A stretch of 37,136 nt of DNA from a virus: the IMG/VR virus record IMGVR_UViG_3300025133_000317, positions 1 to 37,136 of that record. The stretch is one strand, 5' to 3'. Under the pieces are notes generated by a model that was not told the DNA's origin, searched no databases, and saw only the letters and a list, made by a program, of their open reading frames with translations. Every line of letters starts with the position of its first letter. The stretch's first letter is position 1. The position numbers were made by a program, and so were the translations under genes. Below, piece after piece: positions 15,051 through 37,136 of this stretch.

Positions 15051-17342
15051 ATGCCAGAATTAAAACGTACCTTTACCGGTGGTAGGATGGAGAAAGATAT
15101 TGATGAAAGAATCTTACCAAACGGTCAATATAGAGAAGCATTAAATATAGGTGTTGCAACTTCAGAAGATTCTGACGTAGGTGCGGCTCAAAACATATTA
15201 GGTAACGTTAAAGTTACATCAGCAGCATCTTCAACTACATATAGTAAAGGAGGGGGATTTGGTGATGAACACGTTGGTTATAATTACCATATAGCTGAGA
15301 TTATAGACGCTCAAACAGATATGCTTTATAGGTTTGTGCACACACCAAATTCAAGTTTTGGTTTGTGGGTGGATAGAATAATTGAATACGATACTAGTAA
15401 GGACTTAAAAACCTCTTGGGAAGACAAAGAGCATGCTATTATGGTTGATGTGTTTAAAGTAACAGATACAATAGTAGCCCACAGTTGTATTTGTCTTGGT
15501 TCAAACAAATCTGAAATAACAGTTTCTTTAAATAAAGTTAATTACCTAAGATGGGGTATGTTAGTCACGGTTAAACCACAACTAGGCCACCCTGGTATAT
15601 TAGCAAGCGAGGGTGTTACTATTGAAAATATAGATTATCAAACCGGAGTATTATCGTTATCCAAACCTGTGTTTGTACCAAACCCGCCAGATTGTTATGA
15701 CAATACCGGCGTTGGAGATGAGATAACTTTTACAGGCGATAGAAATTTAAACTTTTCTCCTGATAATGCGATTACCGGTATTAATATTATAGATGGAATG
15801 ATATTTTGGACTGATAACTTTTCAGAACCTAAAAAAGTAAATATTAAAAGAGGAAAAATAGGTTCTATATCTAATTCCGAAAGAGGGTTTGATGATGGCA
15901 CGGGTATCGTGCATGGATTCGATATAGGTAGAACAAGTCAAGATAAAATAGATGATTTTAACCAACCCACATTGTTAATTGTAGACGATGGTTTAAAAGA
16001 AGATTGTTTAAAAGATGAGGCTTTTTGCCCTATAGTAGGATGTACAAATCCTTTAGCTATAAATTATGATCCACTAGCATTATACGATGATAATAGTTGT
16101 TGTCTACTTGTTGGTTGCACGGATGCCACACTTATAACAGATGAAAATGACAGGAAACCGGGTGAAGACGGATATATAGACACACATTATTGTACCTACA
16201 ACCCAGATAATTGTTATGATGATGGTAGTTGTTTCGAAGACGCTTGTGGTTGTACTGATTCAACTGCAATAAACTTTAACGCGGTGTCTGTTGTTGATGA
16301 TGGCTCGTGTATTTATACTGAGTTAGGTTGTACGGATGATATGGCATATAATTATGATCCACTTGCAAATACAGATGATGGCAGTTGTCAATACGGGTAC
16401 ACTTGTTATCCGCCGGGTTATGCTCCAGCTGCTGGTGATCAATGTGATGATCCTAATAACCTTATAGCCCCAAATAATTACGCTGGTAGCACAGATATTT
16501 TTGACTCAAATAACTGGTGGAGTGGAACGAGTGGGTCGGAAGAAGTAGGCTTGATGAATTGGTTTAGTGGAATTAATAATAATACTAAAGAATATAGTGA
16601 TTATCATTATGTTTGGCAATATAGTATAGGAGCACCACAAGCCCAATATGTAGATACGTGGTGTAATTATCCCATAGATGCAAGTTCGCATATTGAGAAA
16701 AGGTTTATTAAAGGTATACACTTTAAAAACAACCAATTTGATGGGGTATTTGCTCGCGTCACAAATTATCAAAATATCCACACTCAGGCTTGGCTGCAAA
16801 CGGCGACCGGTAATAATGAAAATACTGAACAGAATTTCCTGGGGAATCCTTCTACCGTTTCTAAAGAATATGCTCCTCAAAAAACGCTTCAATATTACAA
16901 TGGAGCGGTTGGTGTTCCACCAAGTCCTGATCCATATGATGGATTATTAACCTCTCCGGGAGCTGATATTGTATTTGCCAATCACACCGAACTTGTCGAC
17001 GGTCTTAGAAAAACGGTGTTTGATGGGAATTATTTTTGTTGGGCGAATGGATCTGATTACGTGACTGATTGGAACAATCAAAACGGTGCTAACAAAATCC
17101 CAGTCCCTGAAGTAACCTACTCAATGACCTTTGATCAAATTGTGGCCATTGTTTCCCCAGCAACACCTTATTTCTTCGGCCCTACTGCTGGTTACCTTTC
17201 GATGGTCCTTACAATGCATACCGGTGGGTGTAGATGTTATGGTAATTATAACCCGAGTGCCACCAGTTCGTGTGAGGTGGATCCACTCAGTAACACTACC
17301 CTAGCAAATTGCGATGCTAATTGTGGTTTTATACCCGCTTAA
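15051..17342 (+). CDS. N-terminal part of a split tail (muzzle/stabilisation-like) protein with Cys-rich repeats
   Basis: This is a 763-residue protein. Residues 1-50 (LKRTFTGGRMEKDIDERILP, then GQYREALNI and SDVGAAQNILGN) and residues 243-267 (INIIDGMIFWTDNFSEPKKVNI) form the conserved head of a large tail protein known from marine Bacteroidota phages. In homologues as I recall them, the text then continues directly to a segment like the start of the next gene. Here residues about 330-446 instead hold four GCTx...DDGSC-type Cys-rich units. A further 300-residue unique domain follows, ending in a degenerate GGCRCYGNYNPSATSSC unit. DNA from about 16.9 to 17.3 kb has clearly higher G+C than the rest. 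The protein probably sits on the tail or muzzle. The added region may be surface exposed and host-facing. Confidence 0.75.
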   Translation: MPELKRTFTGGRMEKDIDERILPNGQYREALNIGVATSEDSDVGAAQNILGNVKVTSAASSTTYSKGGGFGDEHVGYNYHIAEIIDAQTDMLYRFVHTPNSSFGLWVDRIIEYDTSKDLKTSWEDKEHAIMVDVFKVTDTIVAHSCICLGSNKSEITVSLNKVNYLRWGMLVTVKPQLGHPGILASEGVTIENIDYQTGVLSLSKPVFVPNPPDCYDNTGVGDEITFTGDRNLNFSPDNAITGINIIDGMIFWTDNFSEPKKVNIKRGKIGSISNSERGFDDGTGIVHGFDIGRTSQDKIDDFNQPTLLIVDDGLKEDCLKDEAFCPIVGCTNPLAINYDPLALYDDNSCCLLVGCTDATLITDENDRKPGEDGYIDTHYCTYNPDNCYDDGSCFEDACGCTDSTAINFNAVSVVDDGSCIYTELGCTDDMAYNYDPLANTDDGSCQYGYTCYPPGYAPAAGDQCDDPNNLIAPNNYAGSTDIFDSNNWWSGTSGSEEVGLMNWFSGINNNTKEYSDYHYVWQYSIGAPQAQYVDTWCNYPIDASSHIEKRFIKGIHFKNNQFDGVFARVTNYQNIHTQAWLQTATGNNENTEQNFLGNPSTVSKEYAPQKTLQYYNGAVGVPPSPDPYDGLLTSPGADIVFANHTELVDGLRKTVFDGNYFCWANGSDYVTDWNNQNGANKIPVPEVTYSMTFDQIVAIVSPATPYFFGPTAGYLSMVLTMHTGGCRCYGNYNPSATSSCEVDPLSNTTLANCDANCGFIPA
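16038..16389 (+). repeat. Four Cys-rich GCTD...DDGSC protein repeats
   Basis: The pattern is G-C-T-[DN]-x(2)-A-x-N-[YF]-[DN]-x(8)-D-D-[GN]-S-C, with a spacing of roughly 20 residues in regular units. Unit 2 is longer and irregular. Each unit has a Cys at both ends and an acidic DD before the last Cys, which would suit disulphide or calcium-stabilised surface loops. The same pattern is common in marine Bacteroidota exported proteins. Confidence 0.8.
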
Positions 17343-17353
17343 TAATTCAAAAT

Positions 17354-20300
17354 ATGAATAAATTGATTAAAAATTCACCTTTAAAAAGAGCAGGCGTAGA
17401 AGCGCCAATTGTAGATTGTCCGGAGTTTGACGAAATATGTAGACCAGCGTTTGTTCTTGAAAAGCACTTATCAGTTATAAGAAAAGGACCTACAGCTCCT
17501 CCAAGACTTGAGATGTATAAGTTTGAAGAAGAAGTGATGACCGTAAGTGATCCAGCAGGGGATGGCTATGGATCTGCAGGGTCTGGTGATTACGGTACTA
17601 TAGAGGGAGTTTTTACCGGTGCAGATATGTGGCAATCTAAGAACTTCCGTGATTGGGATGGTGGTGGCGAGGCAGTAACCCCAGCTGGCGCTATAGCTTG
17701 GGCCAACTCAAAGAAAGATAAGTATGGTACTGGTAATGATGGTGCTGATATAAGTACCTTTTTCCACCCTAATAAAGAACAAAAAAAATCAGGAGACAAA
17801 GTTGTTATACCTATAGATATATCTGTTAATAGTGAGGACTGGGAGATTAATGACCATGTAATTGTAGAACACATATTTCAAAATCAATGGGGAGACTCTA
17901 AAAAAGCTGTTTGTAGATTATCTATAGATAGAGTTTTTCACGATTCTAGTTCCCCAGATTTTCCGATGCTTCTTGCTACAGATTACGCTAACGTGGGTAC
18001 AACAACAATTTATGGACTAGGTACTGAGCCTGGGGTTAACTCGTCTTGGGGTTGGGTTGGGGATCAACAAGCGCAGTACATAACGGGTACAATAATAAGT
18101 ATAACTGGTAATTTTCCTATAGATGGTATACATGGGAATGATGTATACGAAGTTAGGTTAGTTCAAAATCCAGCCATATTTAAGCACAAATTCCCTAAGT
18201 TTGCTTATAGATATAAGTATGAAGATGGTGAGTATTCTGTGTTTAGCCCTTGGTCTGAAGTTGCTTTCTTACCAGAAACATACGACTATCTTCCTAAAAA
18301 AGGATATAACCTAGGTATGGAGAATGCGTTAAGATCTTTAAGAATAAAGGATTTTGTTCCTAAAGATATACCTAAAGATGTTATTCAAGTTGACTTATTG
18401 TACAAAGAATCTAACTCGCCAAGCGTATATACTGTAGCGTCATTCAAAGAAGACGATCCCCCTGGTGCTAGCGCTCTTTTGAATTACTGGCAAACACCTG
18501 GTACTGGTGGAAACAAGGGGAATTATAAAATAAGTTCTGAGTTAATACACAAAGTAGTACCGTCTAATCAAATGTTAAGACCTTGGGATAACGTACCTAG
18601 ATATGCTTTAGCACAAGAAATAACTGCTAACAGATTAATATTTGCAAATTACATTCAAAATTATAACCTATTATCTTCAAACAATGAAGAAGTAATACCT
18701 GAGTTTAGCACGAGTATTAAAAGTTCGGACCGTTCTTGGAATAGTGCAAATCCTAAACCAGGAGAACCTGCTAAATCTTTAAAATCCATGCGTACCTATC
18801 AGCTTGGTATTGTTTATAGGGATAAGTATGGTAGAGAAACACCCGTGTTAACGGCTAAAAGCGGTTCTATTAAACTTGATAAAAGTTTTGCTAAATTCAT
18901 AAATAGAATTAGAGTTCAAATGGAGTCTCCAGCGCCTCATTGGGCTGAGTCATATACTTTTTATATAAAAGAAACATCTAACGAATACTACAATCTAGCA
19001 ATGGATCGTTGGTATGACGCTGAGGATGGTGGGGTATGGTTGTCTTTTCCTTCTGTAGAAAGAAACAAAATATCAGACAGAACAACTTTGATATTAAAGA
19101 AACAGCATGATTCAAATGTATTTACAGCTGATACAACTAAATATAAAGTTTTATCTATAAAAGATAATGCCCCAACGTTTATTAAAACAGATCTTAAATA
19201 CTGGGGTAATTTACCTATGACGCTGCCTCCTCCTGGGTGGGGTGATTTAGGAACTTGGGATTGCGGTATGTTTTATCCAACTGGTTTACCGTTGCCAGCT
19301 AGAATGTATCTTGATGTTTATGCCGAGTATTGGGATCAATCTGTGTTTAAAAAACTATCTAGCAAGGATGGTGCTCAAATTCGTATAGTACAAAGCGAGG
19401 GACAAGCGTCCGCATATCAAGCTGGAGTACAAGATAACACAAACAAAACACGTTGGTATGATATAGCTAATGTAGAATACATAGGCGCGCCAGCTCAAAC
19501 ATATACTGAAACAGTTACAGATGCTGATGGTAACGAAGTATCAACAGAGGTTGAAGTTGCAGGACAATTAGAGCAGTTAGTTAGAGTTAGTTTAGAAAAA
19601 GCGCTTGGTGATGACGCTGGTTTTTGCAAACCGGACGCTTACACTGGTTTATCGACAGGCGGCACTCCCTTCACCCAAGCAGCGGACAACGAGCTTGATA
19701 GAGGTTTATCTTTAGAGGTTAGAACAAAAGAGGTTAAAGATAAGGCTCAATTTGAAGGAAGATTTTTTGTTAAAGTGTTAAGAGACTATAATATACAACA
19801 AAACATAATAAATCCTCAACAAGATTTTTCTCAAAAATATCAAGTTTTACAAACTAAAAATATATCATATTTATGCGTTGGTCACCCCGGGGTGCAAGAC
19901 TGGAATAACGATTCTAAATATTACATTCCACCAGCTATTGCGGGTGCTGGAGAGGTAGCGAACCACCCATCCGGCTCCCCTTGGATTAGTGTATCTAGTC
20001 AACCTACTGGAAATTTATTTAGGTGGAGATCCGGACCGCTGCAAATAAGTAGTCTCTCTGAGCATCACGCTAATAAAAGCGCTACATATGATAGTGGTAA
20101 TTTTGCAGGTGGTCATGGTATAATAGGATCACCTATAGATAATCCTCAGCAGTTTAAGGATGATATTGGTAGACCTGGCGCTGCTTCTTGGCCTATTGGA
20201 CCTGGAGATGTTACTGATGGGGCTTATCGCGATAAAGATGAGGGGAGGAGCTATTGGCGTAATACATATATTGATTGGCTTAATGGATCGGGTGATAAAT

Positions 20301-23300
20301 ACTTTAAAGACACTCCACTTAAATGTAATGATACTACTGACCCAGACGAAGATTATAGGGGCCGTACGCACGATTGGCCAAGTCAAATGCCTGATATGTG
20401 GAATCCATACATGCTATTTGATGCTGCGCTTCCGAATTATGCTACGCTTATTGGAGCACTTGTTGTTAATGATACTCCTTATCAAAATACTAGTGGTAAT
20501 AGTGGTTATTCTTTTAACGGGTTTGGTAGTAATCATATTTTAGATATAACAGCTTGTGATCCTTTTAATCAAAACCAATCAAACCCCTATGACCCAGGTA
20601 CAACCTGGGCTGACAACTCTTATTTAGCAGGCGCAAACCCATTTGCCGTGCCAGCTATATGGGGTGATCAATCAGACTTTATTCAAACGTTAAACACTAC
20701 ACTCGCACATTCTGGAGGTGGGGCAAATAACTTCCAACCAACATGGACAACTTCAACTATTGATAAGTTAAAAAGTGATTGGTATAACTTATGGAGAGGT
20801 AGAGATGATATTTTACCTGAATGGCCTTTAGGTAGATTCCATCCTAATAGATGGTTTATTGATAAAGCTGGTGCCGCAAAAGGATATTCTGGAAATGGTA
20901 TATGGGATGATGGTAATGTTAGTTACATGGATTTATCTTATTGGGGTATTGGTAGTGAGCGTGAGTATAATAGAAAAAACTCTCATCTTGAGTTAATGAA
21001 AATGCACCAAGGAAGTGAAGTTGGTTTTGCAGACGCAATGTCAACTATTGGTACACAATTTAGATTTCAACAAGATCCTGATCAAATTATTTACACCATA
21101 GTAGATGTTGGTGCTCAAACAGATATTTACAACTACGAAGCTCCACAAGGAATTTGGGGTATAGAAGATCCCGCTAATGCTGGTGTGTCTATTGGTGGAG
21201 CGGAGATGGGGTATCAAAGAACGCCACCTTGGGGAGGAAAAAAAGAAACATCTCCACTTGGTGGTGGGATAGCCTTTATATCAGATTTGTTCAGTAAAGA
21301 TAAAAAAGAAACAGGTGGAGCTCCTTATAATAAAAGAATAAGATTTACGTTGACACTAGACAAACTTATAGGTCAAGAAGGTCCATCATCATTTCACCCT
21401 ATAACAAACCACGTTGATAAGGACGGGGTGTGGAATGGAAAGAATGGTAGGCACAAATATAATCAGTCTATTGGTGGTGGTGTGTTTTCAGTTCATACTG
21501 GGGCAACACCAACAAGCGCAGCACCAGCGGGCGACATGGATCTCTATAATATTAATAGTTATTGGAATACTGATGCTGGTAATGGGAGTGGTGCCACCGC
21601 TGGAAGTGGCGCTTTGAGTGGTGCGACTTTAGATTATATTACTGGCGGTGGGTTTGTGGGGCAAGTGGAAACAAGTAACGTACCATCAGGCTCAGATGTG
21701 AGGTTAACTGATCAACCTAGAAGTTTAGATAACACTTTTTATACTGAGCATTATCCAGATGCGTATTTGGGTTTACATGAAAGAGGTTTAAACGAAACTA
21801 CAATAGAGATTATAACTCCATATAAAGGAGAGGACGAATCTGAGATGAGTACTAATCCAGCTGTTTGGGAAACAGAACCATTAGAAGACGTTGGTTTAGA
21901 TATATATTACGCGGCTAGCCCATCATATCCTATTACAATAGATAGGTACAGATATGATAATGATTTTGCAGCGGAACCAGATAAATCGGATCCCTTTAAC
22001 GCTAATTGGTATGACTACGGTTACAGAGGAGAAGAGGTTATCCCGGTGGGAGCACAACTATACCCTGTTGGTTTAGGTGGTGCAATAAACTCGTCTGAAG
22101 TTTGCGCTGTTCAAAACGATGTTATTTGGTTAAGGAGTCACGGATGGAGTGCGGGGGGATCTGCTTTTATTGAGGATGGTAATACCACACTCGGATATAA
22201 CGATACCAATTGTGGTGGTTGTGGTGCAGGTGATGACTATATACTACCATTAGGAACTGATGTTAGGTTTTCATTTAGGGGTGAAGGTACTTATTATGGG
22301 GCTGGTAAGGATCTAGAGGAATTAAACACAACTATAGTTGAGGCTTTAGGTAATCCAACGGGAGCAGCTGGGGTTACTGTTTATAGAGTTGACTCAAGTA
22401 CACATAATAAAAGAAGACAACTTAAATATTTTAATTGTTACAGTTATAGTACTGGAGTAGAAAGCAATAGAATTAAAGATGATTTTAATGCTGTTACTAT
22501 AGACAAAGGTGTCAAAGCATCAATGCCACTAGCTGAGCAGTATGAAGAGGAGAGAAAGGGTAGTGGTTTAATATTCTCTGGTATATACAATTCTACTAGT
22601 GGTGTAAATAGAACAAACCAATTTATACAAGCCGAACCGATAACAAAAGACTTAAACCCAGTTAACGGTAGTATACAAAAGCTTTTCACTAGAGACACTG
22701 ATTTAGTTACTTTTTGCGAGAATAAAGTATTTAGAATATTTGCGAACAAAGATGCTTTATTTAATGCTGATGGAAACACTAACGTTACATCAACAAATAA
22801 AGTTCTTGGACAAGCAAAACCTTTTACCGGGGAGTACGGTATATCAAGAAATCCAGAATCGTTTGCGTCAGAATCTTATAGAGTTTATTTTGCGGATAAA
22901 GCAAGGGGAGCTATTTTAAGACTATCTAGGGATGGTATCACAAACATATCTGATAAGGGCATGAAAAATTGGTTTAAAGATAACTTAAGGTTTGCAACCT
23001 CTATTATAGGTAGTTATGATGATAGAGAAAATCAATACAATATTACAGTTGAAACTGAAGACATCGATAAAAGAGATAAAGCATATACTTTAAGTTTTAC
23101 TGAAGCTAGAAAAGGTTGGGTGAGCTTTAAATCCTTTATAACTCAAGGAGGTATTAGTCATAAAAACATATACTACACTTTCCCATCTAATGAATATGGT
23201 AAAAAAGCAGCCTTAGATCCTTGGGGAGTATCATACCAATTAAAAGATCCATCAGGTATTGCTGAAACATGGCAACATAATTTAGATATACGAGTTTCCC

Positions 23301-24538
23301 GTCTAATATTACCCCCGTATCCCACTGTTAACTCCAACTCCTTTAGCGTTCAAGATAACTCTAGAGGGTCAATACTCGTTGGTATGAACGTTACGGGTAA
23401 TGGCGTGCCAATAGATACTGTTGTGACAAGTGTTCAATGTGGTGGTGGTAAGTGTGATGTTGTGGTTAGCAAAAACTGTTCTATCATGCAATCGAGTTTA
23501 GGTGTTACTGGTCACATAGTGTTTACAACACCTAGAAATAATTTTTATAGTATCGATGATAACTACTCAATGATTAAAGTGCTTTTTAATCAAGGTCAAG
23601 GAACTGTAAAAAGATTTAAAACTCTAGACTACGAAGGTAGTCAAGCTAAAACTATTTTTAGACCAGATAATGAAAATATAATAGAAGGCCAAAATGTTGG
23701 TCAGGTTTATTATGACAATATAGAGAAGTCAGGTTGGTATGCGTATCATTTAAACACGGATATGCAAGTAGGAAAAGTTCGTGAGTTTATGGATAAAGAA
23801 AACAAGTGGTATAACTTTATAAGAGGTTACGGTACTTGGAAGCACAATGATTCTTATGATTTACAACCGGCTGGCGACGGAATCATTAGTGGTAGTAATT
23901 TTGGAAGAGCCGCTACTCAAGATGATCAATTAGATACTGGGGCTTTTTCTTTACAGGGATTAGGTTTTGCGGAAACGTATTGGTTGGCTACACCTGAGTT
24001 CGATTGTATTAGCGGTACTTGTACAGAAGTTATTAGTGGAGATTATTCTACTGAAGACGAGTGTTTACAGAGTGGATGCGAGGATGTTTCTGGCTGTACA
24101 GATTCTACTGCGGGGAACTATAACCCCTTAGCTAATCAAGATGATGGTAGCTGTCTTTATGCTGGTTGCATGGATATACTTGCAGACAACTATGATGCTA
24201 ACGCTGATATGGATGATGGTAGTTGTACTTATCCCGCTACACTTATCGCTGATTGTAATGGTGCTTGTTATGATCCTGGAGATGGTACGGGTTACGATAC
24301 TGAGCCTGAGTGTAAATTAAATCTTCCACCTAATGGGTGTACAGATCCAACGGCGTGTAACTACGATCCAAATGCTGAGTGTGATGATGGAAGTTGTTGC
24401 TTTAGGTGTGGCTGTATGGATAATGGATACTTAGTATTTGCTAATGGTGATCCATATGATTCTCCTAATTGGGGGCAAGCGGCTACTAATTATGATGATG
24501 CGAATTGTTTTGATGACGGAACATATTGTACATATTAA
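17354..24538 (+). CDS. Giant tail protein, C-terminal part of the split muzzle/stabilisation-like protein
   Basis: This is 2394 residues from ATG 17354. An in-frame ATG at 17321 reads back through the previous gene and is disfavoured. Residues 3-12 carry KLIKNSPLKR (SPLK motif). Residues 38-50 (HLSVIRKGPTAPP) match the segment that follows the WTD...EPKKINI part in single-gene homologues (recollection). Beta-rich domains follow. The best conserved part is at about 1700-1940 (ESNRIKDDFNAVTIDKG, LIFSGIYNSTSGVN, GEYGISRNPESFASESYRVYF, IGSYDDRENQYNI), with NPAVWETEP near 1500. Residues about 2247-2394 are four Cys-rich units ending the protein. It is probably a major tail component reaching the host surface. 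No membrane or enzyme motif is visible. The gap from the previous stop is 11 bases, in another frame. Confidence 0.85.
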   Translation: MNKLIKNSPLKRAGVEAPIVDCPEFDEICRPAFVLEKHLSVIRKGPTAPPRLEMYKFEEEVMTVSDPAGDGYGSAGSGDYGTIEGVFTGADMWQSKNFRDWDGGGEAVTPAGAIAWANSKKDKYGTGNDGADISTFFHPNKEQKKSGDKVVIPIDISVNSEDWEINDHVIVEHIFQNQWGDSKKAVCRLSIDRVFHDSSSPDFPMLLATDYANVGTTTIYGLGTEPGVNSSWGWVGDQQAQYITGTIISITGNFPIDGIHGNDVYEVRLVQNPAIFKHKFPKFAYRYKYEDGEYSVFSPWSEVAFLPETYDYLPKKGYNLGMENALRSLRIKDFVPKDIPKDVIQVDLLYKESNSPSVYTVASFKEDDPPGASALLNYWQTPGTGGNKGNYKISSELIHKVVPSNQMLRPWDNVPRYALAQEITANRLIFANYIQNYNLLSSNNEEVIPEFSTSIKSSDRSWNSANPKPGEPAKSLKSMRTYQLGIVYRDKYGRETPVLTAKSGSIKLDKSFAKFINRIRVQMESPAPHWAESYTFYIKETSNEYYNLAMDRWYDAEDGGVWLSFPSVERNKISDRTTLILKKQHDSNVFTADTTKYKVLSIKDNAPTFIKTDLKYWGNLPMTLPPPGWGDLGTWDCGMFYPTGLPLPARMYLDVYAEYWDQSVFKKLSSKDGAQIRIVQSEGQASAYQAGVQDNTNKTRWYDIANVEYIGAPAQTYTETVTDADGNEVSTEVEVAGQLEQLVRVSLEKALGDDAGFCKPDAYTGLSTGGTPFTQAADNELDRGLSLEVRTKEVKDKAQFEGRFFVKVLRDYNIQQNIINPQQDFSQKYQVLQTKNISYLCVGHPGVQDWNNDSKYYIPPAIAGAGEVANHPSGSPWISVSSQPTGNLFRWRSGPLQISSLSEHHANKSATYDSGNFAGGHGIIGSPIDNPQQFKDDIGRPGAASWPIGPGDVTDGAYRDKDEGRSYWRNTYIDWLNGSGDKYFKDTPLKCNDTTDPDEDYRGRTHDWPSQMPDMWNPYMLFDAALPNYATLIGALVVNDTPYQNTSGNSGYSFNGFGSNHILDITACDPFNQNQSNPYDPGTTWADNSYLAGANPFAVPAIWGDQSDFIQTLNTTLAHSGGGANNFQPTWTTSTIDKLKSDWYNLWRGRDDILPEWPLGRFHPNRWFIDKAGAAKGYSGNGIWDDGNVSYMDLSYWGIGSEREYNRKNSHLELMKMHQGSEVGFADAMSTIGTQFRFQQDPDQIIYTIVDVGAQTDIYNYEAPQGIWGIEDPANAGVSIGGAEMGYQRTPPWGGKKETSPLGGGIAFISDLFSKDKKETGGAPYNKRIRFTLTLDKLIGQEGPSSFHPITNHVDKDGVWNGKNGRHKYNQSIGGGVFSVHTGATPTSAAPAGDMDLYNINSYWNTDAGNGSGATAGSGALSGATLDYITGGGFVGQVETSNVPSGSDVRLTDQPRSLDNTFYTEHYPDAYLGLHERGLNETTIEIITPYKGEDESEMSTNPAVWETEPLEDVGLDIYYAASPSYPITIDRYRYDNDFAAEPDKSDPFNANWYDYGYRGEEVIPVGAQLYPVGLGGAINSSEVCAVQNDVIWLRSHGWSAGGSAFIEDGNTTLGYNDTNCGGCGAGDDYILPLGTDVRFSFRGEGTYYGAGKDLEELNTTIVEALGNPTGAAGVTVYRVDSSTHNKRRQLKYFNCYSYSTGVESNRIKDDFNAVTIDKGVKASMPLAEQYEEERKGSGLIFSGIYNSTSGVNRTNQFIQAEPITKDLNPVNGSIQKLFTRDTDLVTFCENKVFRIFANKDALFNADGNTNVTSTNKVLGQAKPFTGEYGISRNPESFASESYRVYFADKARGAILRLSRDGITNISDKGMKNWFKDNLRFATSIIGSYDDRENQYNITVETEDIDKRDKAYTLSFTEARKGWVSFKSFITQGGISHKNIYYTFPSNEYGKKAALDPWGVSYQLKDPSGIAETWQHNLDIRVSRLILPPYPTVNSNSFSVQDNSRGSILVGMNVTGNGVPIDTVVTSVQCGGGKCDVVVSKNCSIMQSSLGVTGHIVFTTPRNNFYSIDDNYSMIKVLFNQGQGTVKRFKTLDYEGSQAKTIFRPDNENIIEGQNVGQVYYDNIEKSGWYAYHLNTDMQVGKVREFMDKENKWYNFIRGYGTWKHNDSYDLQPAGDGIISGSNFGRAATQDDQLDTGAFSLQGLGFAETYWLATPEFDCISGTCTEVISGDYSTEDECLQSGCEDVSGCTDSTAGNYNPLANQDDGSCLYAGCMDILADNYDANADMDDGSCTYPATLIADCNGACYDPGDGTGYDTEPECKLNLPPNGCTDPTACNYDPNAECDDGSCCFRCGCMDNGYLVFANGDPYDSPNWGQAATNYDDANCFDDGTYCTY
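24092..24538 (+). repeat. C-terminal Cys-rich repeats of the giant tail protein
   Basis: There are three close units of the form GC[TM]D-x(2)-A-x-NY[ND]-x(2)-A-x(2)-DDGSC, and a fourth, longer and divergent one (GCMDNGYLV ... NYDDANCFDDGTYC) at the very end. An unrelated short Cys-rich piece (FDCISGTCTEV) precedes them. They belong to the same repeat family as the one at 16038-16389. Confidence 0.8.
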
Positions 24539-26587: not shown

Positions 26588-29119
26588 ATGGGATTTTTTA
26601 AGAAAGTAGGGAATTTCTTGTTCGGAGATAATAGCGGAAGAAAGAAGGCTGGGAAAGATATGAAAAACTCTATGAAGGCTTTAGACAAGATGACTAAAAA
26701 CTTGGACAACATAGACACTTCAAATCCTTACGCTAACGCTCAAAACGCTTATGCTGGTTTAGAAAATAAAATGGCTGGCATGGATAATGTTTATGATAAA
26801 GCTGAAAACGTTTACGAGGGTAAAATGAAAAATGCTTTTGCTGGTCAGAAAAATGCTTATGAAGGCATGAAGAATGAGTTTGAAGACATGGAAAATGCTT
26901 TTGAAGATTTAACTGTTAATACTCAACAAGCTGAATTTGAAGCTCAACAAAACCAACAGAACCAAGCTAATATATTGTCGCAAATGTCTGGAGCTGCTGG
27001 TGGATCTGGTATTGCGGCTTTAGCTCAATCAATGGCTAACCAAGGTGCTTTACAAGCTCAAAAAGCATCGGCGTCTATTGGCGCTCAAGAGGCACAGAAT
27101 CAAAAAATGGCAGCGCAAGCCGAGGAAAAAATAAACATGGCTACAGCTGGTGAAGGTAGCAAAATACTCATGGCACAAGCTGGAGAGCAATCGAGGCTTG
27201 ATACTCAAAAGCGTTCTGCAGAAATGGATATGCAAAACAAAATACTTGGTGCCGACGAAGCTTTACAAGCGTCAAGACTTGGTGAGGCGTCTAAACTTCA
27301 AATGGCAGAAGCGCAAAATGCTACTAATCTGCAAATGGCTGAAGCGCAAGGTGAGATGGATGTTCAAAAACTAAAAGGTGAGGGCAGTATGTGGAGTACT
27401 GATAAAGAGATTGGTAAAGCAACTACACAAATGGATATGCAGATGAGGAAAGTACAAATGCAAAGCGCTGAAGCAAATGCGCCTAAAGATAAAGGATTCC
27501 TTGGTGGTTTGTTTAGTGATGAAAGATTAAAAGAAAACATAGTGAAAGTTAAACACTCTCACTCTGGAATACCAATATACCACTTTAATTACATAGGTGA
27601 TAAACAAACCTGGAGTGGTACTATGGCTCAAGATCTTTTAAGGTTAGGCAAACAAAACGCTGTTACTATAGCGGAAAATGGTTACTATAAAGTAGATTAT
27701 AATTTAATAGATGTAGACATGAAAAAAGTAAAACCATCACCACTTAAGCAAATAAGAGAAGAACAAGCACAAGCACATAAAGGTATGATGTCTGCTGGAA
27801 TGGACATACTATCTGAAGCCGCTAGACGTAAAAATTGGGAGGAAATACAACAAGAGGCTTTAGCTATTGAACCCGAGGTCATGCAGGCTAGAAAAGCTAC
27901 AGACCAACTACTAATGGATAGTCAAAAGGAAGAACTAGGTGACAACGCTGTTATTATGGAGGTTGGTATTGAGGGTGTTGGTAACGCTCAAAAATACACA
28001 GATTCTTTACATAAACAGCTAGTAGAATATCAAGAAACATTATATAAAGCTCTCACAGAGGAGGATAACAAAACACAAGGTATTGTTAAGCAAAAATTAG
28101 CCATGTGTAAAACTACGATGAATAGGTATAGAGAAGAGACTCAAATTTTTTATGAAAATCATTTTGGACCAGATAGTTTTGTTTCTAAATCTGGATCAAA
28201 ACAACAACTTAGTTTTGGTACTCAGTTATATTGTAAAAATCCAAGTTTAACAATAGTACATGCTACAGCGGAAGATGTTGCTAGCGGTAAGGTTGATGCT
28301 TATAACGATCCGGTTATAGAAGACATGTGTTACGGTATAGTGCAAAATTTCTCAGGTGAGCACGTGCTTGTGAGTGTTACTGCTGGTAATAAAAATGTTC
28401 ACTGGATCAATGCTAATAGAGCTATGGAGTATATTGGGTACGTTCAAGAATATTCTGAAAAAGCCGTTGAAGCTAGAGACGCGAAATCTGTAGTTAAAAT
28501 TGATTTAGGAGGCATAAACTACAAAATGGATATGTTTTTTGGTAGCAATGATGGTAGCGCAACTAAAACACAAGATAGATTAGTAGCTCAATTTTGTTGG
28601 GATACACACTTATTAAAAGATGGTAGTAGCTTTAGACGTCATTTATACGAACATCCTAATATTGAAAACTTAAACTACGGGGGTTTTGATTTTGAAACCA
28701 TGAAATTTAACACAGATCTTGGTCCTGAGGATAAAAATTATTGGTACGACGAAATTAGTCCAATGGATAAATTAAAACTTGTTGATGCTATTTGTAATGT
28801 TGATAGTCCATTTTTTGATATGAAACTTCTTAGAACTTTAGTTAAAGAATATTACACTTACAGAATAGAAAACGCATGGTGGAAGGGTATGGGTTACGAA
28901 GAGGGTAGATTGGAAATAATGAGGTTAAAACAAAAAGAACTTACTAAACAAAGGTTTGCTATGGATAAAGCTAAAGCAGCTGAAGACGGTTTAATGCACT
29001 TTACTTTTGATGGTTCTGTATATCCAACAGGTATGACAAAAGCTAAGCTTAAAAAAATGGAGGAAGAAAAAGCTAATATAGTTAAAAAAGACAACCCAAA
29101 GTCTAACTACGAAAACTAG
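26588..29119 (+). CDS. Virion protein with internal S74-type chaperone domain fused to a second module
   Basis: This is an 843-residue protein. Residues 52-108 are eight heptads. A long Gln/Ala-rich helical region follows (FEAQQNQQNQANILSQMSGA, then LQAQKASASIGAQEAQNQKM). Residues 310-378 are SDERLKENIVKVK through GTMAQDLL to YYKVDYNLIDVDM, a compact version of the peptidase S74 / endosialidase chaperone domain, which normally ends fibres and self-cleaves after its Ser/Asp site. Here it is internal: SPLKQ at about 385-389 opens a new 460-residue module with helices, then an alpha/beta part (TIVHATAEDVASGK ... VLVSVTAGNKNVHWINAN) and a charged C-terminus. In relatives I recall these as separate genes. 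If S74 cleavage occurs, the second module would be released. It is probably tail or ejected cargo. Confidence 0.7.
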   Translation: MGFFKKVGNFLFGDNSGRKKAGKDMKNSMKALDKMTKNLDNIDTSNPYANAQNAYAGLENKMAGMDNVYDKAENVYEGKMKNAFAGQKNAYEGMKNEFEDMENAFEDLTVNTQQAEFEAQQNQQNQANILSQMSGAAGGSGIAALAQSMANQGALQAQKASASIGAQEAQNQKMAAQAEEKINMATAGEGSKILMAQAGEQSRLDTQKRSAEMDMQNKILGADEALQASRLGEASKLQMAEAQNATNLQMAEAQGEMDVQKLKGEGSMWSTDKEIGKATTQMDMQMRKVQMQSAEANAPKDKGFLGGLFSDERLKENIVKVKHSHSGIPIYHFNYIGDKQTWSGTMAQDLLRLGKQNAVTIAENGYYKVDYNLIDVDMKKVKPSPLKQIREEQAQAHKGMMSAGMDILSEAARRKNWEEIQQEALAIEPEVMQARKATDQLLMDSQKEELGDNAVIMEVGIEGVGNAQKYTDSLHKQLVEYQETLYKALTEEDNKTQGIVKQKLAMCKTTMNRYREETQIFYENHFGPDSFVSKSGSKQQLSFGTQLYCKNPSLTIVHATAEDVASGKVDAYNDPVIEDMCYGIVQNFSGEHVLVSVTAGNKNVHWINANRAMEYIGYVQEYSEKAVEARDAKSVVKIDLGGINYKMDMFFGSNDGSATKTQDRLVAQFCWDTHLLKDGSSFRRHLYEHPNIENLNYGGFDFETMKFNTDLGPEDKNYWYDEISPMDKLKLVDAICNVDSPFFDMKLLRTLVKEYYTYRIENAWWKGMGYEEGRLEIMRLKQKELTKQRFAMDKAKAAEDGLMHFTFDGSVYPTGMTKAKLKKMEEEKANIVKKDNPKSNYEN
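26741..26911 (+). repeat. Eight heptad repeats (N-[AVKE]-[YFM]-x-[GDK])
   Basis: Residues 52-108 consist of eight 7-residue units with one skip residue (Met) after the fourth: QNAYAGL, ENKMAGM, DNVYDKA, ENVYEGK, then KNAFAGQ, KNAYEGM, KNEFEDM, ENAFEDL. An aromatic or Met at position 4 and Asn at position 2 are the most constant. This looks like a trimeric or parallel coiled coil. Codons differ between units, so it is an old protein-level repeat. Confidence 0.75.
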
Positions 29120-29122
29120 TAT

Positions 29123-32011
29123 ATGCCTAAAATAAAAATATATATAGACGCACAAGGAAACGAACATAGAGTCGGGCCTAATAGCGAGAAAAGATTTCTT
29201 GAAGAAAACGATGGTGCTAAATTTATTAAGGATGAATATATTTTTGGAGAAGATAAAGATGTAAACGAATTAACAAACTCTGAAAATTTTGAACTCAAAG
29301 GTTTGTTAAAAAAGAAAGAAGATGAAGAAGAACCACCACCAGAAGTTTCTTACCGATATGTTACAGCCGGGGAAGGTGACGATTTTAAATCAGGTTGGCA
29401 AAAAATAACGCTTGAAGGACCTACTGGTAAAGAAAGAGTTGAACCTGTTAAGCAGGAAGAGGTTCCAGATGAGTTTTACAACGACCACATCCAAACACAA
29501 AAACAACGGCATGAAGACGGAGAAGATCTTCACCAATCAGAGGTAATGGAAATTTACCGACCAACTAGAGATGAGGTTAAAGAAAATAATAAGTTAATTA
29601 AAGAAGGTATGGATACATACCTAGCTATAACTAAAAAAAGAATTCCTACACCTCCAAGAACACAAACAACTCTACCTCAAAATGCTATGATTGGAGACGG
29701 GGATGGTGGTGATTCTTATATTCAAGGTAATATTACGTCTAGTACCAAAGAAGCAAAAGAATATGAAAAAAGAGCTAATGCTCATAACTTAGAGCAAAGA
29801 AACAACAACGAGTCAAAGTACGCTGAGTATTACAAAAAAGCACAAAAACAACTAAAAAACCTGGGCAAAGGAACTTCGGAAGAAGAAATTATGGCTCAAG
29901 CAATGGAGTTGGCTGCTGGAGATTATAGAGCTGATTATATTGCAAGAAAATTACGAAAGCAAGCTGAGGAGCAAAGCGACACGTTTACTGATGGTATTTT
30001 AATATCAGACGATAAAGAAAAAACTGATCAAGATATACTAGACTATCAAAAACAAATTGCTATTGGTGTAGATGGGGGTGGCGAACCGGTTTATGGCCCT
30101 AAGTTAACTAAATCTATTAACGAAACGCGATTAGCAGAGACTACACTAGAAAAAAATGCTATAAAAATAAAAGAGCAAAAAGTTAAAATTGACGAAGCTA
30201 AGAAGTTTTGGAAAGATCAATATGATGAAGTGGAAGCTGAGATGAAAAATTATACTAACGTACCGTCTACCATAAGTACTTTAAATAATCTAAACAAACA
30301 ACTAGAGGCTTTCAACAAAAAAGCAGAAGACGGTGGGTTGCCCGAAAAAGAATACAATGAGTATAAAGCTTTAGTAGATAAGTATAATGACATATACTCT
30401 ACAAATAAGAGTGATATAGATTCTTATATAAAACTTCAAAAAAAATATCAAGACATAGATTTTGACTACAGATCACAGGAAACTAAAAATGGTAAAAGCA
30501 CTATAGATGATTTAATTGTAAATTATAATACCTCGCTTAGTGATCAAAACGATACGTACAAGGCATATCAAATGTTGATTAATGATCAAAATGGAATGAT
30601 TGAAGATTCCGGAGATATGGCGGCTTATATAGATATTGTTGGTAGAAATCACAATAACGTTGCTCAGCTTGGCGGTATTCTTACAAATGGTCTTATTGAA
30701 ATTGGTATGACTGTTGAAACTGTAAAACACCAATTAAACCCTAGAATTTTAATTGCTGATGGTTTAAAAGAATATTATAAAGGTGATCCTGAAGAAGCAC
30801 CAGAGATGGTTAAGGGTTTTTTGGCGGCTAGTGACTACGCAAATATTCCTAGAGATAAGATTCGTCGAGGTGTTGAAGGTGTTCAAGATTATTTAACAGG
30901 TGGTCTTCAAAAAAGAATAGAGTGGAAAGACTTGGGTGATGGAGTTGATGATACTTACGAATGGGGTGAATATGTGTTGGGCGCCGCTTCTGATTTTGTA
31001 CCACAATTAGCTTTAATGACAGTAGCTCCTCAAGCATCGCTTTATATTTTAGCCACATCAGCTGCTGGTGGTAAATACGAACAGCTAAAAGAAGAAAACA
31101 AACACGGCGCTGATTATTCAATGGCTGAAATGTACTTTGCTTCAGGACTCTCTGGGGTTGTAGAGTTTGGAACAGAAAGAGTCACACTTGGTTTACTAAA
31201 CAAAACAGGGGTGGGCTTAAAAAATATGCAGAACCTAGGGTTTAAGGAGGGTGTAAAAAGATTAGTAAACCCAATGTTTATAGGTAGAGGTTTGTATGGA
31301 GTAGGTAGCGAAGCAGGAAGTGAGGTGGCGGCAAAAATATTTGGTGATAACCTTGGTGATAAGTTGCTTGGCAAAAACGTTAGTATACTTGATGGTATAG
31401 ACGAGGCTGGTTTTAATGGGTTGATTATGGGTAAAATAGTAAAATCTCCAATAATTGCCAAGGCCGTTATATCGCCTTTTATGCGACCAAGTGATCAGGC
31501 TATTTTTGATAAAAACGATGCTAAGATTATAGAAATAGAAAAAGCATTGTCAAATCCTGATATATCAGATGGTACAAGATCTTTGTTAGAAGAGCAATTA
31601 AATGCGGTTATAGCTGAAAATAATAACGTATATTCTAGAATCATCGATAACACTGATGAGATGACTAAGGATGAGTATAAGATAATACAAGAGGCTGATA
31701 AAAGCTTAAATGATTCAAAAGAAGCTATTGAAGTTATAAAAGCGGATAATACTCTAAGTCTTACTGATCAAGCTAAGCTTATTAAAGAAGTAACAGATGC
31801 TTATTACAAAAAAAATAAACTAAAAAACGAAACTTTAAAAGAAATAAATCTTCGTAACGATATAAAGGCGGCCGAAAAAGGACTTAAAAAGCTAGATCCT
31901 AACGCGAGGCTTGAGGGAATAGATACTAGAAGAGAGTTTCAAAAAAGATATGAGGAAGTAACAGGCAAGAAAATGATGTTACAAACAAAGATGCTTTCTT
32001 TGATCCTATAA
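29123..32011 (+). CDS. Giant multidomain ejected-type protein, N-terminal part (frame interrupted)
   Basis: The frame is 962 residues long, with a natural end near residue 948. It opens MPKIKIYIDAQGNEHRVGPN, followed by an acidic, disordered region and long coiled coils (residues 200-450: KYAEYYKKAQKQLKNLGKG, EKNAIKIKEQKVKIDEAKKF). Residues about 615-695 are hydrophobic and small-residue rich: YVLGAASDFVPQLALMTVAP, then ILATSAAGGKYEQLKEENKHGADYSMAEMYFASGLSG. This is typical of phage internal or ejection proteins that enter the membrane (recollection). Helical segments follow, up to YEEVTGK. After that the frame gives KKMMLQTKMLSLIL and stops, while an adjacent frame continues in homologous-looking sequence to the window end. 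Read as one gene with the 31969-37136 part. Confidence 0.75.
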   Translation: MPKIKIYIDAQGNEHRVGPNSEKRFLEENDGAKFIKDEYIFGEDKDVNELTNSENFELKGLLKKKEDEEEPPPEVSYRYVTAGEGDDFKSGWQKITLEGPTGKERVEPVKQEEVPDEFYNDHIQTQKQRHEDGEDLHQSEVMEIYRPTRDEVKENNKLIKEGMDTYLAITKKRIPTPPRTQTTLPQNAMIGDGDGGDSYIQGNITSSTKEAKEYEKRANAHNLEQRNNNESKYAEYYKKAQKQLKNLGKGTSEEEIMAQAMELAAGDYRADYIARKLRKQAEEQSDTFTDGILISDDKEKTDQDILDYQKQIAIGVDGGGEPVYGPKLTKSINETRLAETTLEKNAIKIKEQKVKIDEAKKFWKDQYDEVEAEMKNYTNVPSTISTLNNLNKQLEAFNKKAEDGGLPEKEYNEYKALVDKYNDIYSTNKSDIDSYIKLQKKYQDIDFDYRSQETKNGKSTIDDLIVNYNTSLSDQNDTYKAYQMLINDQNGMIEDSGDMAAYIDIVGRNHNNVAQLGGILTNGLIEIGMTVETVKHQLNPRILIADGLKEYYKGDPEEAPEMVKGFLAASDYANIPRDKIRRGVEGVQDYLTGGLQKRIEWKDLGDGVDDTYEWGEYVLGAASDFVPQLALMTVAPQASLYILATSAAGGKYEQLKEENKHGADYSMAEMYFASGLSGVVEFGTERVTLGLLNKTGVGLKNMQNLGFKEGVKRLVNPMFIGRGLYGVGSEAGSEVAAKIFGDNLGDKLLGKNVSILDGIDEAGFNGLIMGKIVKSPIIAKAVISPFMRPSDQAIFDKNDAKIIEIEKALSNPDISDGTRSLLEEQLNAVIAENNNVYSRIIDNTDEMTKDEYKIIQEADKSLNDSKEAIEVIKADNTLSLTDQAKLIKEVTDAYYKKNKLKNETLKEINLRNDIKAAEKGLKKLDPNARLEGIDTRREFQKRYEEVTGKKMMLQTKMLSLIL
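31954..32011 (+). other. Apparent -1 frameshift joining the two halves of the giant gene
   Basis: Frame 1 is closed by TGA at 31951 and open afterwards to the edge; frame 2 closes at TAA 32009-32011. The join must fall between 31954 and 32008, most simply at AAGAAAA (31967-31973), giving ...EEVTGK-ENDVTNKDAFFDP. One missing A in that run restores a single frame. There is no canonical X-XXY-YYZ slippery heptamer, so an assembly or sequencing indel is likelier than programmed shifting. Confidence 0.75.
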
Positions 32012-35000
32012 GTGGCGATGCTTATGTAAACAAAACAAGAGCCAAACAAGTTGGAGCCGTGTCGGCTGGATCACACGAGTTGTTACACAAAATAATGAAA
32101 AATGTTTTGAATGGCGCTGATGGTAAATTAACCAATAAAGGCAAAACGTTGATTGATAATTTTTTAAATAGTATACCAGCTAAGCATAGGGTTATAATAC
32201 AAAAAAGAATAGAAGATAACTATAAATATGAGCGTGGTCCAAATAGAGAGATAATAAAAGAGAAAGACCCAATGGAGTACTATGAAGAGTATTTAAACTC
32301 CTACTCAGACGCTATTAGAAAAAAAGAAATTAATCCAAAAGACGGGGATTTATTGGGTGTTGGTAGAAAGATAAGAGACTTCTTTTCACAAACAGGTTAT
32401 GAAAACTTAAAGTTTAACAGTGGAAGAGATGTAAAAAACTTTTTAAAAGATTATGCAGCTGACATTAAATCAGGTGAAGTTAGAGAATCAATATTAGCTG
32501 TTGGACAAGGAGATGGTGCTAAAATTGGAGAAGCCAAGTTTTCTGAATCAGCATTTGAAGATGCTAGTGTTGTTGAGGATTTAGGTTTAAAAGATAGTAC
32601 CGCTAAGATTGTCGAAAAGAACAAAAAGATTAATGATGTTATATTAAGAGAGGGCATTAAAGATAAAGATGGCAATATAATGGCATCTCCTAATATGCAA
32701 AAAGCTTTAGCAGAAAACAATTTGCCTAGAGCGTTTGCTTTAGCTAAACAAGCTGCTGGAAAAGCTAACGATCTTACATTAGAAGAGGCTTTAAAAATGA
32801 ACGATGTTATGGAGTGGTATAGTGAGTATGCTTTAAAACTTACTGAACTAGCTAGAACATATAGAGCTGTAAAAGATGGCAAGCAAGTTCCTTTTGGAGC
32901 TTATATGAATACTTTATTACCAGTAAAATATTCTGGTATATTAACCAAACTAAAAAATAAAGTTGAAGCATCTAGTATGTCAGATGAGGCTACAGCTAAA
33001 ATAGTTGGGAAAATGGCTGTTCCAACTGAAACCTTGTCTAATAATGAGGTTGAAGGTAAAAAAGTAGCTTTAAATACTATAGGAGAACAAGAAACTCAAA
33101 AGCGACTTGTTAATATAGCCAAAGAAGATCCTTCTCTTTCTAAGTTACGTAAATATAAAGAGGTTAAAGGTGAGCTAGTTGCTCATAATAAACCAAAGAA
33201 AAAATCTAATAGAAAACCAACTGGAAAACTATATGGAGCTTTAGAAGCCGTGTCAGAAGGAATATTTGGAGTTGAAGCAGCGAGAATATTACAAGAAAAA
33301 GATTTGAATACTGAACAAAGAAAAGCGGCTCAAGATGTAATATTAGCTAAAACAAATGAGATAATAGCCATGATGCCATTTGGTACCACGGCTAGTGGAG
33401 ATGCTACTGGTGTTGCAAATACTAAATTAAGTGTATTTTATAAAAAAGGAGCTAGAACTAAAATGACAGCTACTGGCACTGGTAAAGGTTTGGCTACTCA
33501 AGTAAAACAAAATATTGATCCTACTAAGTTTAGAGAATTAGTTGGGCTCGTAAAAGGTGGTCGTATAAATAATACGTCTGTTGATGGTAGTATTAGAGCT
33601 ATAATAGTTCAAGTTGCAACTATAGCTTCTAATCAAGCCATAAGACAAGTTTATGGTCCAGAAACATTACCGCTTAAAGATGGTAAAGCTTCTACTATGT
33701 TCTCCGAAACATATCAACAACCATTTTTACAAGAAATGGGTGAGCTTAGTAGAGCTATGCAAAAAGAGCAAGGTAGTTGGACTTCTATATTAAAAAGATT
33801 TGGGCTCACACCGATAAACATGAAGACGGAAAATGGAAGGCATGAGATGGAGTTATGGGTGTTTGGCACTGCAAATCAATACCTACCGTTAATCTTTTTT
33901 CAACATAGCGGTAATTGGACAGGCACAACAGAAGGTGCTCTTGAGGGTGATGGTACAGAGATCAGGTTGCACAAGGGTAATTACTTATACAAAAACACAA
34001 AAGAACTAAACGAGGCTATAGACTACTATATACAAGATGGTAGAATGTGGCAGGGAGAAGCTATGTCGGAACAAGATAAGGCAGATATTGCTATGGCTTT
34101 AAAAAGAGAATCTTTAAGTGATAAAACTCTTAAAAATGAAGAAGCAAAAAGAAGTAAAGAAAGGGGCTTTGAGTTAATCTGGAAGCAGTTTAATAAAATG
34201 GTCGAAGATAACCCAAACAACCTTCCTTACATAGCGGCTTTATTAAGTTCTTCTAGTGCTTATCAAGGTCATTTCATGAGAACTGGGTCTACTTATGAGT
34301 TTAAAAATTTAGAAGACGGCGCAACAGTTGAGGAGCATCAACAACCAGCTACTGACTTAGCTAAGTTTTTATTTAATAGATTAGCTCAAAAGAATTTATT
34401 TGAAGGTGATACTTTTAAGAACGCAGTAGCGGGATACCAACAAGGAAAACTCTTAAAAATTGATGATAAAAAATTAATTAATAAAAAAGAAGGTTGGAGC
34501 TATCAGTCTAACGCTGGGGAATTTATGTACCCTATATTTGCTGGGAAAATGCCTATTTGGGTTAGATATTTTAACCCAAAGGTTAATGGTAATAATGGTG
34601 GTATAAATCCTAACTCTTATAAATTAGCTAATGGAAATACCATAGCACAAGAATATGGTGTTAATGTGGATGCTAAATTAACAAACCCTATAGTTATTGC
34701 TAAGCAGCAGGATTTATTATATCAAATATTCACAGGACAAATAACCCAAGCCCAAGCGGCTAAAACAATAGATAGTGTTGCTAACGCTAAGTTTAGTTCT
34801 ACTATTGAGTCTGATATGAACTTGGATAAAGCCGCAAAATTTTCTAGAACAGTTAATCCAGCTAAAGGTATATCTGTATTAGATTTTGACGACACGTTAG
34901 CTACAAGTAAGTCTTTAGTTGAGTCTACGTCACCTGATGGTACAGTTAGAAAACTAACAGCAGAACAGTTTGCTAAAGAAGGTGCTGATTTACTAGATCA

Positions 35001-37136
35001 AGGTTGGAAACATGATTTCTCAGAGTTTAGTAAAGTTGTAGATGGTAAGGTTGCTTCGTTGTTTAAGAAAGCAATGAAACTGCAAGGTAAGTTTGGTCCT
35101 GAGAACATGTTTGTATTAACAGCAAGACCCGCTGATTCTGCTCCAGCTATATTTGAATTTTTAAAAGCTAATGGTTTAAATATACCGTTAAAGAATATTA
35201 CTGGTTTAGCTAATTCTACGCCAGAAGCCAAAGCACTTTGGATGGCTGATAAGGTTGGTGAAGGTTATAATGACTTTTATTTTGCAGATGATGCTTTGCA
35301 AAACGTACAAGCTGTTAAAAATATGTTAGATCAATTCGACGTTAAGTCTAAAGTGCAGCAAGCTAAGGTTAAGTTTAGCGAATCGTTAAACCCTAAGTTT
35401 AATAATATATTAGAACAAACAACAGGTATTAAATCTGAAAAAGAATTTTCTAATGCACAAGCTAAATTAAGAGGTCAGAAAACCAAATACAAATCTATAA
35501 TACCAGCATCTGCTCAAGATTTCCAAGGGTTATTATATAACTTCTTAGGTAAAGGTAAAAAAGGAGAAGCTGATATGGCTTTCTTCAAAAAAGCTTTAAT
35601 AGATCCATTTGCTAGAGGTATTAACGAGTTAAACGCGTCGAGACAATCAGCTGCAAATGATTTTGAAAATCTAAATAAGAATTTCCCTGATGTTAAGAAA
35701 AAGCTTAACAAAAATATAGAAGGTTTAGATTATACTAATGACCAAGCAATGAGGGTTTATCTTTGGAACAAAGCTGGGTTTGAAGTTCCTGGTTTATCAA
35801 AAAGAGATTTAGCAGCTTTAACTAGCTTTATAGAAAACAACCCTGAAATGAAGGCTTACGCTGATGCTATAGGTTTGATTTCTAAAAAAGAAGATGGATA
35901 CTCTAAACCTAAAGATTATTGGTTAGCTGAAAATATTGCTTCTGACCTGTTGAGCGATGGAGCGATTGGAGATAAGAGATCTGATTTTCTAGCTGAATGG
36001 AAACAAAATAAAGATATGATATTCTCTCCTGAGAATCTAAATAAGATAGAGGCTATATATGGCTCTAAGTTTAGAGAAGCTTTGGAAGATATGTTATATC
36101 GTATGGAGACTGGTAGAAATAGACCAACGGGTAATAGTAGACTAGTAAACGGCTATATGAACTGGGTTAATAACTCTGTTGGAGCAATCATGTTCTTGAA
36201 CTTACGTTCTGCTACATTACAAACTATATCTGCAACAAATTATATTAATTGGTCAGATAATAATCCACTAAAAGCTGGTATGGCTTTTGCTAATCAAAAG
36301 CAATTCTGGAGCGATTTCTCTATGATATGGAATTCTCCTTATTTGAAACAAAGAAGAGCTGGTAATCAAAGAGGTATTAATGAGGCTGAACTTTCAGCTG
36401 CTGTTGCTAATAGTGATAATAAAGCTAAAGCAGCTATAGCTTGGTTGCTTAAGAAAGGATTTACACCTACACAAATAGCGGATAGTTTTGCAATATCTAT
36501 AGGTGGTTCTACTTTTTATAGAAATAGAATAAAGAAGTATGTTAAAGAAGGTATGTCGCAGAAGGATGCTGAGGCAAAAGCTTGGTTAGATTTTCAAGAA
36601 ACTACAGAGGTAAATCAGCAATCAGCTAGACCTGATATGATATCACAACAACAAGCATCTCCTCTTGGTAGATTAATATTAGCATTCCAAAATACTCCAA
36701 TGCAGTATGCTAGAATAATGAATAAAGCTACTAGAGATTTAGTAAACGGTAGAGGTGATTATAAAACTCATATATCTAAAATCGCTTATTATGGTGTTGT
36801 GCAGAGTATTATATTTGGAGCTTTACAATCTGCGTTATATGCTTCGCTAGGAGATGACGATGAGGAAGATTTTGATAAGAAGAAAGAGAGAATATTAAAT
36901 CAAATGGTAGATTCATGGTTAACTGGTATTGGAGTTGGTGGTAAAGCTATAGGTACGGTTAAGAATACTTTAATGGAATACTTTGAGCAAAGAGATAAAG
37001 GGTTTAATTCTGATCACGCATACACACTACTTACTATTCTTAGCTTTTCTCCACCAATAGGATCTAAACTACGTAAGATATATTCATCTATACAAACTGA
37101 AGAATTTAATAGAGGGGTGTTTGAAAAAAGAGGATT
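31969..37136 (+). CDS. Giant multidomain protein, C-terminal part: zincin, HAD phosphatase, membrane-like region (3' truncated)
   Basis: More than 1720 residues run in one open frame to the right edge, with no plausible start before the first domain. HELLH at 32074-32088 is a zinc HExxH motif; EEYLNSYSDAI at about 32284-32316 likely supplies the third ligand (Glu). A long unnamed region with ARTKMTATGTGKGLATQV and a catalytic-looking LIFFQHSGNWTGTTEG follows. A HAD-like phosphatase lies at 34882-35310: DFDDTLATSK (motif I), LTARP (motif II) and FADDALQN (motif IV). The last 1 kb has FLNLRSATLQTISATNYINW, PLGRLILAFQNTPMQYARIM and a hydrophobic helix (AYYGVVQSIIFGALQSALYA). This layout suits a 'polyvalent' protein delivered with the genome. 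Its own gene end lies beyond the window. Confidence 0.8.

Follow-up and report, generated by a model that had tools for sequence, protein, structure and literature searches.

A putative giant ejection protein with zincin-like and HAD-superfamily domains encoded beside the virion genes of a podovirus contig

RESULTS AND DISCUSSION

The giant gene at the end of a viral contig appears to encode an internal virion (ejection) protein comparable to T7 gp16 and at the same time a polyvalent protein, with a zincin that would cut its own chain and a HAD domain that would act in the host. We assign this reading a probability of about 0.7. The analysed DNA, here called the window, is a single IMG/VR record of 37,136 bases. 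The gene, its domain order, the conserved catalytic residues, the predicted folds, the synteny, and the relationship of the core to a protein recorded in virions by MS/MS are results of the analysis, and the coordinates of all features are collected in Table 1. The protein appears to belong to a widespread family of uncharacterised giant proteins.

Table 1. Features of the giant gene and its upstream neighbour in the window
Feature	Positions	Strand	Basis or remark
Upstream S74-containing gene, virion/ejection-related, syntenic neighbour of the giant gene	26588..29119	+	Family search, synteny
Giant gene part 1, 962 aa up to the frame break	29123..32011	+	ORF in frame 2
N-terminal charged coiled-coil/tape-like part, poorly conserved	29123..30559	+	
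Helical core with small-residue, mildly hydrophobic stretches	30560..31820 (approximate)	+	Common to giant proteins of cultured flavobacterial phages
Hydrophobicity peaks of the core	30659-30715, 30971-31063, 31418-31474	+	
Zincin-like metallopeptidase domain	31900..32360 (approximate)	+	Alignment, AF2 of homologue
Frame overlap holding the frame break of this record	31954..32011	+	Unbroken in 78 homologous ORFs
Giant gene part 2, -1 frame, runs beyond the window end	31954..37136	+	Frame 1 open from 31954 to past 37134
HELLH zinc-site motif	32074-32088	+	Codon 41 of second frame
Third ligand, Glu 112	32287-32289	+	Alignment
Variable region from zincin to HAD, no recognisable domain	32491..34815	+	
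HAD-superfamily domain	34849..35403	+	Alignment, AF2, Foldseek, Pfam
HAD motif I, DFDDT	34882-34896	+	
HAD cap hairpin, kinase insertion site in relatives	about 34921-34960	+	
HAD motif II, LTAR	35116-35127	+	
HAD motif III, Lys 1093/1100 (second-frame numbering)		+	
HAD motif IV, DD	35287-35292	+	
All-helical C-terminal part, most conserved region of the family	35401..37134	+	Alignment, AF2

A single giant gene broken in one record

The giant gene starts at position 29123, and the window stops before its 3′ end. A single scan of viral contigs returned 187 matching stretches, from which we drew a homologue set of 78 ORFs, all located on other IMG/VR contigs. An ORF was counted as running in a single frame through the region of the break if it contained HExxH plus several hundred upstream residues in the same frame, and this was the case for every one of the 78. 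Therefore, the break belongs to this record, either as a sequencing or assembly indel or as a real mutation, and the proposal of the first-pass annotation that one gene emerges once the frameshift is bridged is borne out. The record does contain two ORFs, with open frames that overlap by 58 bases, and could be read as encoding two separate proteins or the product of a programmed frameshift. Given the unbroken homologues and the position of the break inside the zincin domain, just upstream of HExxH, we regard this as highly improbable, and a programmed frameshift was ruled out because the break is absent from every homologue.

The homologues for which both ends are available (n = 72) are 2229-4137 aa long with a median of 2886, and homologue C-termini extend about 90-200 aa past the point matching the window end. 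In some members (L011, L004, L007, L032, L034 and others), the protein ends in one or two DUF5763-like Cys-Cys-Cys-His motifs, and the sequence pattern makes a small zinc-binding tail beyond the window end possible. Part 2 of the gene had no tblastn match in cultured phages, part 1 alone as query gave no confirmed match in the viral-contig scan, and near-identical contigs sought with a 15-base DNA pattern yielded chance matches only.

Genomic context and cultured relatives

PHROGs matches identify, in order, GroES, the terminase, the portal and a number of virion proteins. The gene order is the same as in Cellulophaga phage phi18:3, from GroES-TerL-portal through the last gene, gp123. The closest terminase is that of Podoviridae sp. 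ctfjg026 (MW202828; 63%), followed by those of Flavobacterium phage elemo, Cellulophaga phages and Tenacibaculum phage Gundel_1. The source of the giant protein is probably a marine phage, a flavobacterial podovirus related to the Pachyviridae. The order of tail/ring genes, g26144, the S74 protein and the giant gene is kept in nearly all relatives, and the giant gene lies beside late virion genes.

The core links the window protein to giant proteins of cultured flavobacterial phages. With default filters, the core profile finds phi18:3 gp123 (3e-22) and Gundel_1 gp074 (7e-27), and it also matches the giants elemo gp18 and phi38:1 gp101 with filters off and by BLAST. Some of these profile scores carry composition bias, as the core is rich in coiled coils, so we rely on the phi18:3 and Gundel_1 matches at default filters and on gene position. 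All four giants belong to the same virion module and have a homologous core. The GenBank record of phi18:3 gp123 describes it as 'virion structural protein, experimental MS/MS', and this statement rests on the record, as our literature searches on virion proteomics of Cellulophaga phages gave no open-access paper that covers gp123.

Outside the core, the four giants differ from the window family to varying degrees. Gundel_1 and elemo have an HExxH domain after the core, as in the window family, whereas the phi18:3 and phi38:1 giants are without HExxH, and HAD is absent from all four. The core is all that phi18:3 gp123 has in common with the window protein, and the C-terminal part has a clear match only in Gundel_1 (5.6e-10). 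Podoviridae sp. ctfjg026 encodes a 3859-aa giant at the same position that is matched by both the core and the zincin profiles and contains two HExxH motifs, but it lacks HAD, and its C-terminal part is not detectably similar to that of the window family. The annotation of this giant (MW202828, 741-12320) as 'reticulocyte binding/rhoptry protein' is misleading.

Two further observations concern the neighbouring genes. The product of the gene directly upstream (843 aa) carries a Peptidase_S74-like motif in mid-protein (aa 310-351) and also matches a 'DNA ejection protein' family, with the ORF being much shorter in most relatives. The tail/muzzle-like proteins encoded at 15051-17342 and 17321-24538 both contain GCTDxxAxNYxPxAxxDDGSC-type repeats, which we associate with secreted Bacteroidetes proteins.

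A conserved zincin-type site

HExxH is present in all 78 family ORFs, compared with 0.7% of composition-shuffled copies, and the downstream Glu of the zinc site is found in all but one (77/78). In an alignment of 54 homologues (A4; 740 residues, mean identity 14%), invariance is confined to the columns H, E, H and a single downstream Glu, which falls within the stretch EEYLNSYSDAI. This stretch, HELLH and DFDDT all lie where the first-pass annotation had placed them.

As the window copy is broken, the domain was modelled with AF2 on a homologue (L011), with most of it at pLDDT 80-94. The model has a strand at residues 412-416, a helix at 419-430, strands at 445-447 and 452-456, the HExxH helix at 468-482 and the Glu helix at 546-565. 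This zincin order of N-terminal helix, three-stranded sheet, HExxH helix and Glu helix is the one described for the metallopeptidases of polyvalent proteins (PMC5512222). The conserved catalytic residues and the predicted topology together support the suggested zincin-type site. Zinc peptidases recur among the weak matches of the domain in Pfam, PHROGs and PDB (M78, DUF5700, M91, phrog_87 and snapalysin), and Foldseek of the whole 740-aa model against PDB returned helical noise with no zincin match.

A HAD domain that accepts inserts

Asp977, Asp979, Thr1056, Lys1093, Lys1100, Asp1112 and Asp1113 (second-frame numbering) are invariant columns across 55 aligned sequences, and motif I occurs in every homologue (78/78) versus 4.7% of composition-shuffled copies. 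Since the window copy lacks its end, the HAD and C-terminal parts were modelled on another homologue (L003), for which AF2 predicts alternating strands and helices in the Rossmann-like order of a HAD core. Foldseek with this model points to Legionella Ceg4 (probability 0.98) and EYA2 (0.4-0.8), with E-values above 0.1 for a query that is a large multi-domain model. The Pfam model DUF2608 is found in 24 of 25 members, with the window protein at the cut-off. The effector Ceg4 and DUF2608 are the nearest solved fold and the nearest Pfam model, respectively, yet both are remote from the phage domain, which sits within a giant phage protein. A HAD domain with intact motifs, as initially described, agrees with the invariance of motifs I-IV and the predicted topology. 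Had most homologues lost their catalytic residues, the first-pass annotation would have been refuted, but the residues of both the zincin and the HAD domain proved to be kept. Being clade-specific and conserved, the HAD domain is predicted to be a likely active phosphatase delivered to the host.

In six of the 78 members (L012, L031, L043, L045, L047 and L067), the hairpin that follows motif I of the HAD domain holds an inserted zeta/AAA_33-type P-loop kinase. These carriers are spread over three branches of the C-terminal tree, which indicates more than one gain or exchange of the kinase, or repeated losses. Such a combination could be read as end repair, with the HAD domain (and the kinase in some members) serving as a polynucleotide 3′-phosphatase/5′-kinase that is delivered with the DNA and undoes host cleavage of tRNA or DNA. 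Besides the inserted kinase, weak matches to phage proteins annotated as polynucleotide kinase or RNA ligase are consistent with this idea. However, the best matches of the kinase are AAA_33/zeta rather than Pnkp, and the HAD profile reaches only E=2 against mammalian Pnkp. Identification of the inserted kinase as a polynucleotide kinase was set aside as weakly supported. For the zeta-like kinases of polyvalent proteins, the proposed targets are cell-wall precursors (PMC5512222), and the small share of members with a kinase also argues against end repair as the function of the family, which we consider improbable.

Other inserts occur at the same position. L080 has a different one (13100-13510) that matches ART-PolyVal weakly (E=0.14) and is only suggestive of an ADP-ribosyltransferase, and L070 and L082 have shorter, unidentified inserts.

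Self-processing zincin or injected effector

In the favoured reading, the gluzincin-type domain would most likely cut its own chain, as has often been proposed for zincins in long polyvalent chains (PMC5512222). The zincin is also present in the HAD-less relatives ctfjg026, Gundel_1 and elemo, and this wider distribution fits chain handling better than a role tied to HAD. On our analysis, processing of its own chain is at least as likely as a role as a takeover protease. The HAD domain, freed or still tethered, would then be a phosphatase in the host cytoplasm.

Both domains could instead be injected effectors for takeover or anti-defence, the zincin cutting a host protein and the HAD domain dephosphorylating a host protein or metabolite, with no self-processing. 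An effector role is on record as possible for polyvalent zincins (PMC5512222), the protein phosphatases Ceg4 and EYA2 have the fold closest to that of the HAD domain, and both domains keep their catalytic residues while the surrounding sequence diverges. Against this stand the chain-processing role often proposed for such zincins, the retention of the zincin where HAD is missing, and the fact that no target is known; we find the effector explanation unlikely, though less so than end repair. It is similarly speculative that a virion-delivered phosphatase, in some members with a cap kinase, is freed by the built-in zinc protease and, during the first minutes of infection, targets host signalling or nucleic-acid ends that host defence has cut.

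Mildly hydrophobic core and C-terminal part

The 'membrane-like' parts of the first-pass annotation were overstated. The highest 19-residue Kyte-Doolittle mean in the giant protein is 1.35, and 59 of the 78 homologues have no peak of at least 1.6. With hydrophobicity only this mild, we rejected a transmembrane reading of these parts. The C-terminal part, described earlier as hydrophobic, is predicted to be all-helical and is not clearly transmembrane; it may possibly serve in virion docking.

Comparison with polyvalent and ejection proteins

Polyvalent proteins are long chains that combine unrelated enzymatic domains including a zincin and are encoded beside virion genes (PMC5512222), as is the case here. 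The window protein has two biochemically unrelated domains in zincin and HAD, to which relatives add SLT or GH108 and a kinase, and these features support the earlier assignment to this kind of protein. The kinase and possibly ART inserts of relatives are a further likeness. In contrast, neither 'phosphatase' nor 'haloacid' occurs in the main text of PMC5512222, and a HAD phosphatase would be an addition to the reported polyvalent repertoire. No polyvalent-specific Pfam model reached the cut-off in the window protein, and LPD14 matched one relative at E=0.005.

T7 gp16 starts with a transglycosylase (PMC8954989) and resembles some relatives in having an N-terminal peptidoglycan hydrolase on a very long chain from the virion module, but gp16 is not reported to carry either a zincin or a HAD domain. 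The giant protein itself has no Pfam or PHROG match to ejection-protein families or T7 gp16. Profiles A3-A6 did not match N4 gp50 or the giants of crAss001 (first 50 kb) and phi14:2 (RNAP in part), and identity with an N4 or crAss-like virion RNA polymerase was dropped on the absence of a match in the parts searched.

Probable delivery and exchange of modules

Entry into the host with the DNA is likely, given the synteny, the MS/MS record for a virion protein that shares the core, and the muramidase N-termini of relatives; for the window protein itself, packaging and ejection are what we infer. The giant protein would be packed in the virion and precede the DNA through the tail, with its N-terminal tape (a muramidase in some relatives) and helical core helping to form a conduit across the envelope. 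In crAss-like phages, large cargo proteins are stored for which partial unfolding on ejection has been proposed (PMC10172136).

The ejection protein would in this way be a carrier with swappable enzymes, in which the N-terminal muramidase is exchanged between near-identical relatives and the HAD cap can take up a kinase and possibly an ADP-ribosyltransferase. Culturable flavobacterial phages thereby make it testable what is delivered along with phage DNA. The family search found no N-terminal peptidoglycan hydrolase in the window protein, while five members (L038, L039, L041, L048 and L049) have an N-terminal SLT or GH108 domain. L038 and L039 share about 72-100% identity across roughly 3100 residues, but no relationship is seen between their first 200 (17-19% identity). 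With GH108 in L038 and SLT in L039 and L041 on near-identical giants, this is a clean module swap.
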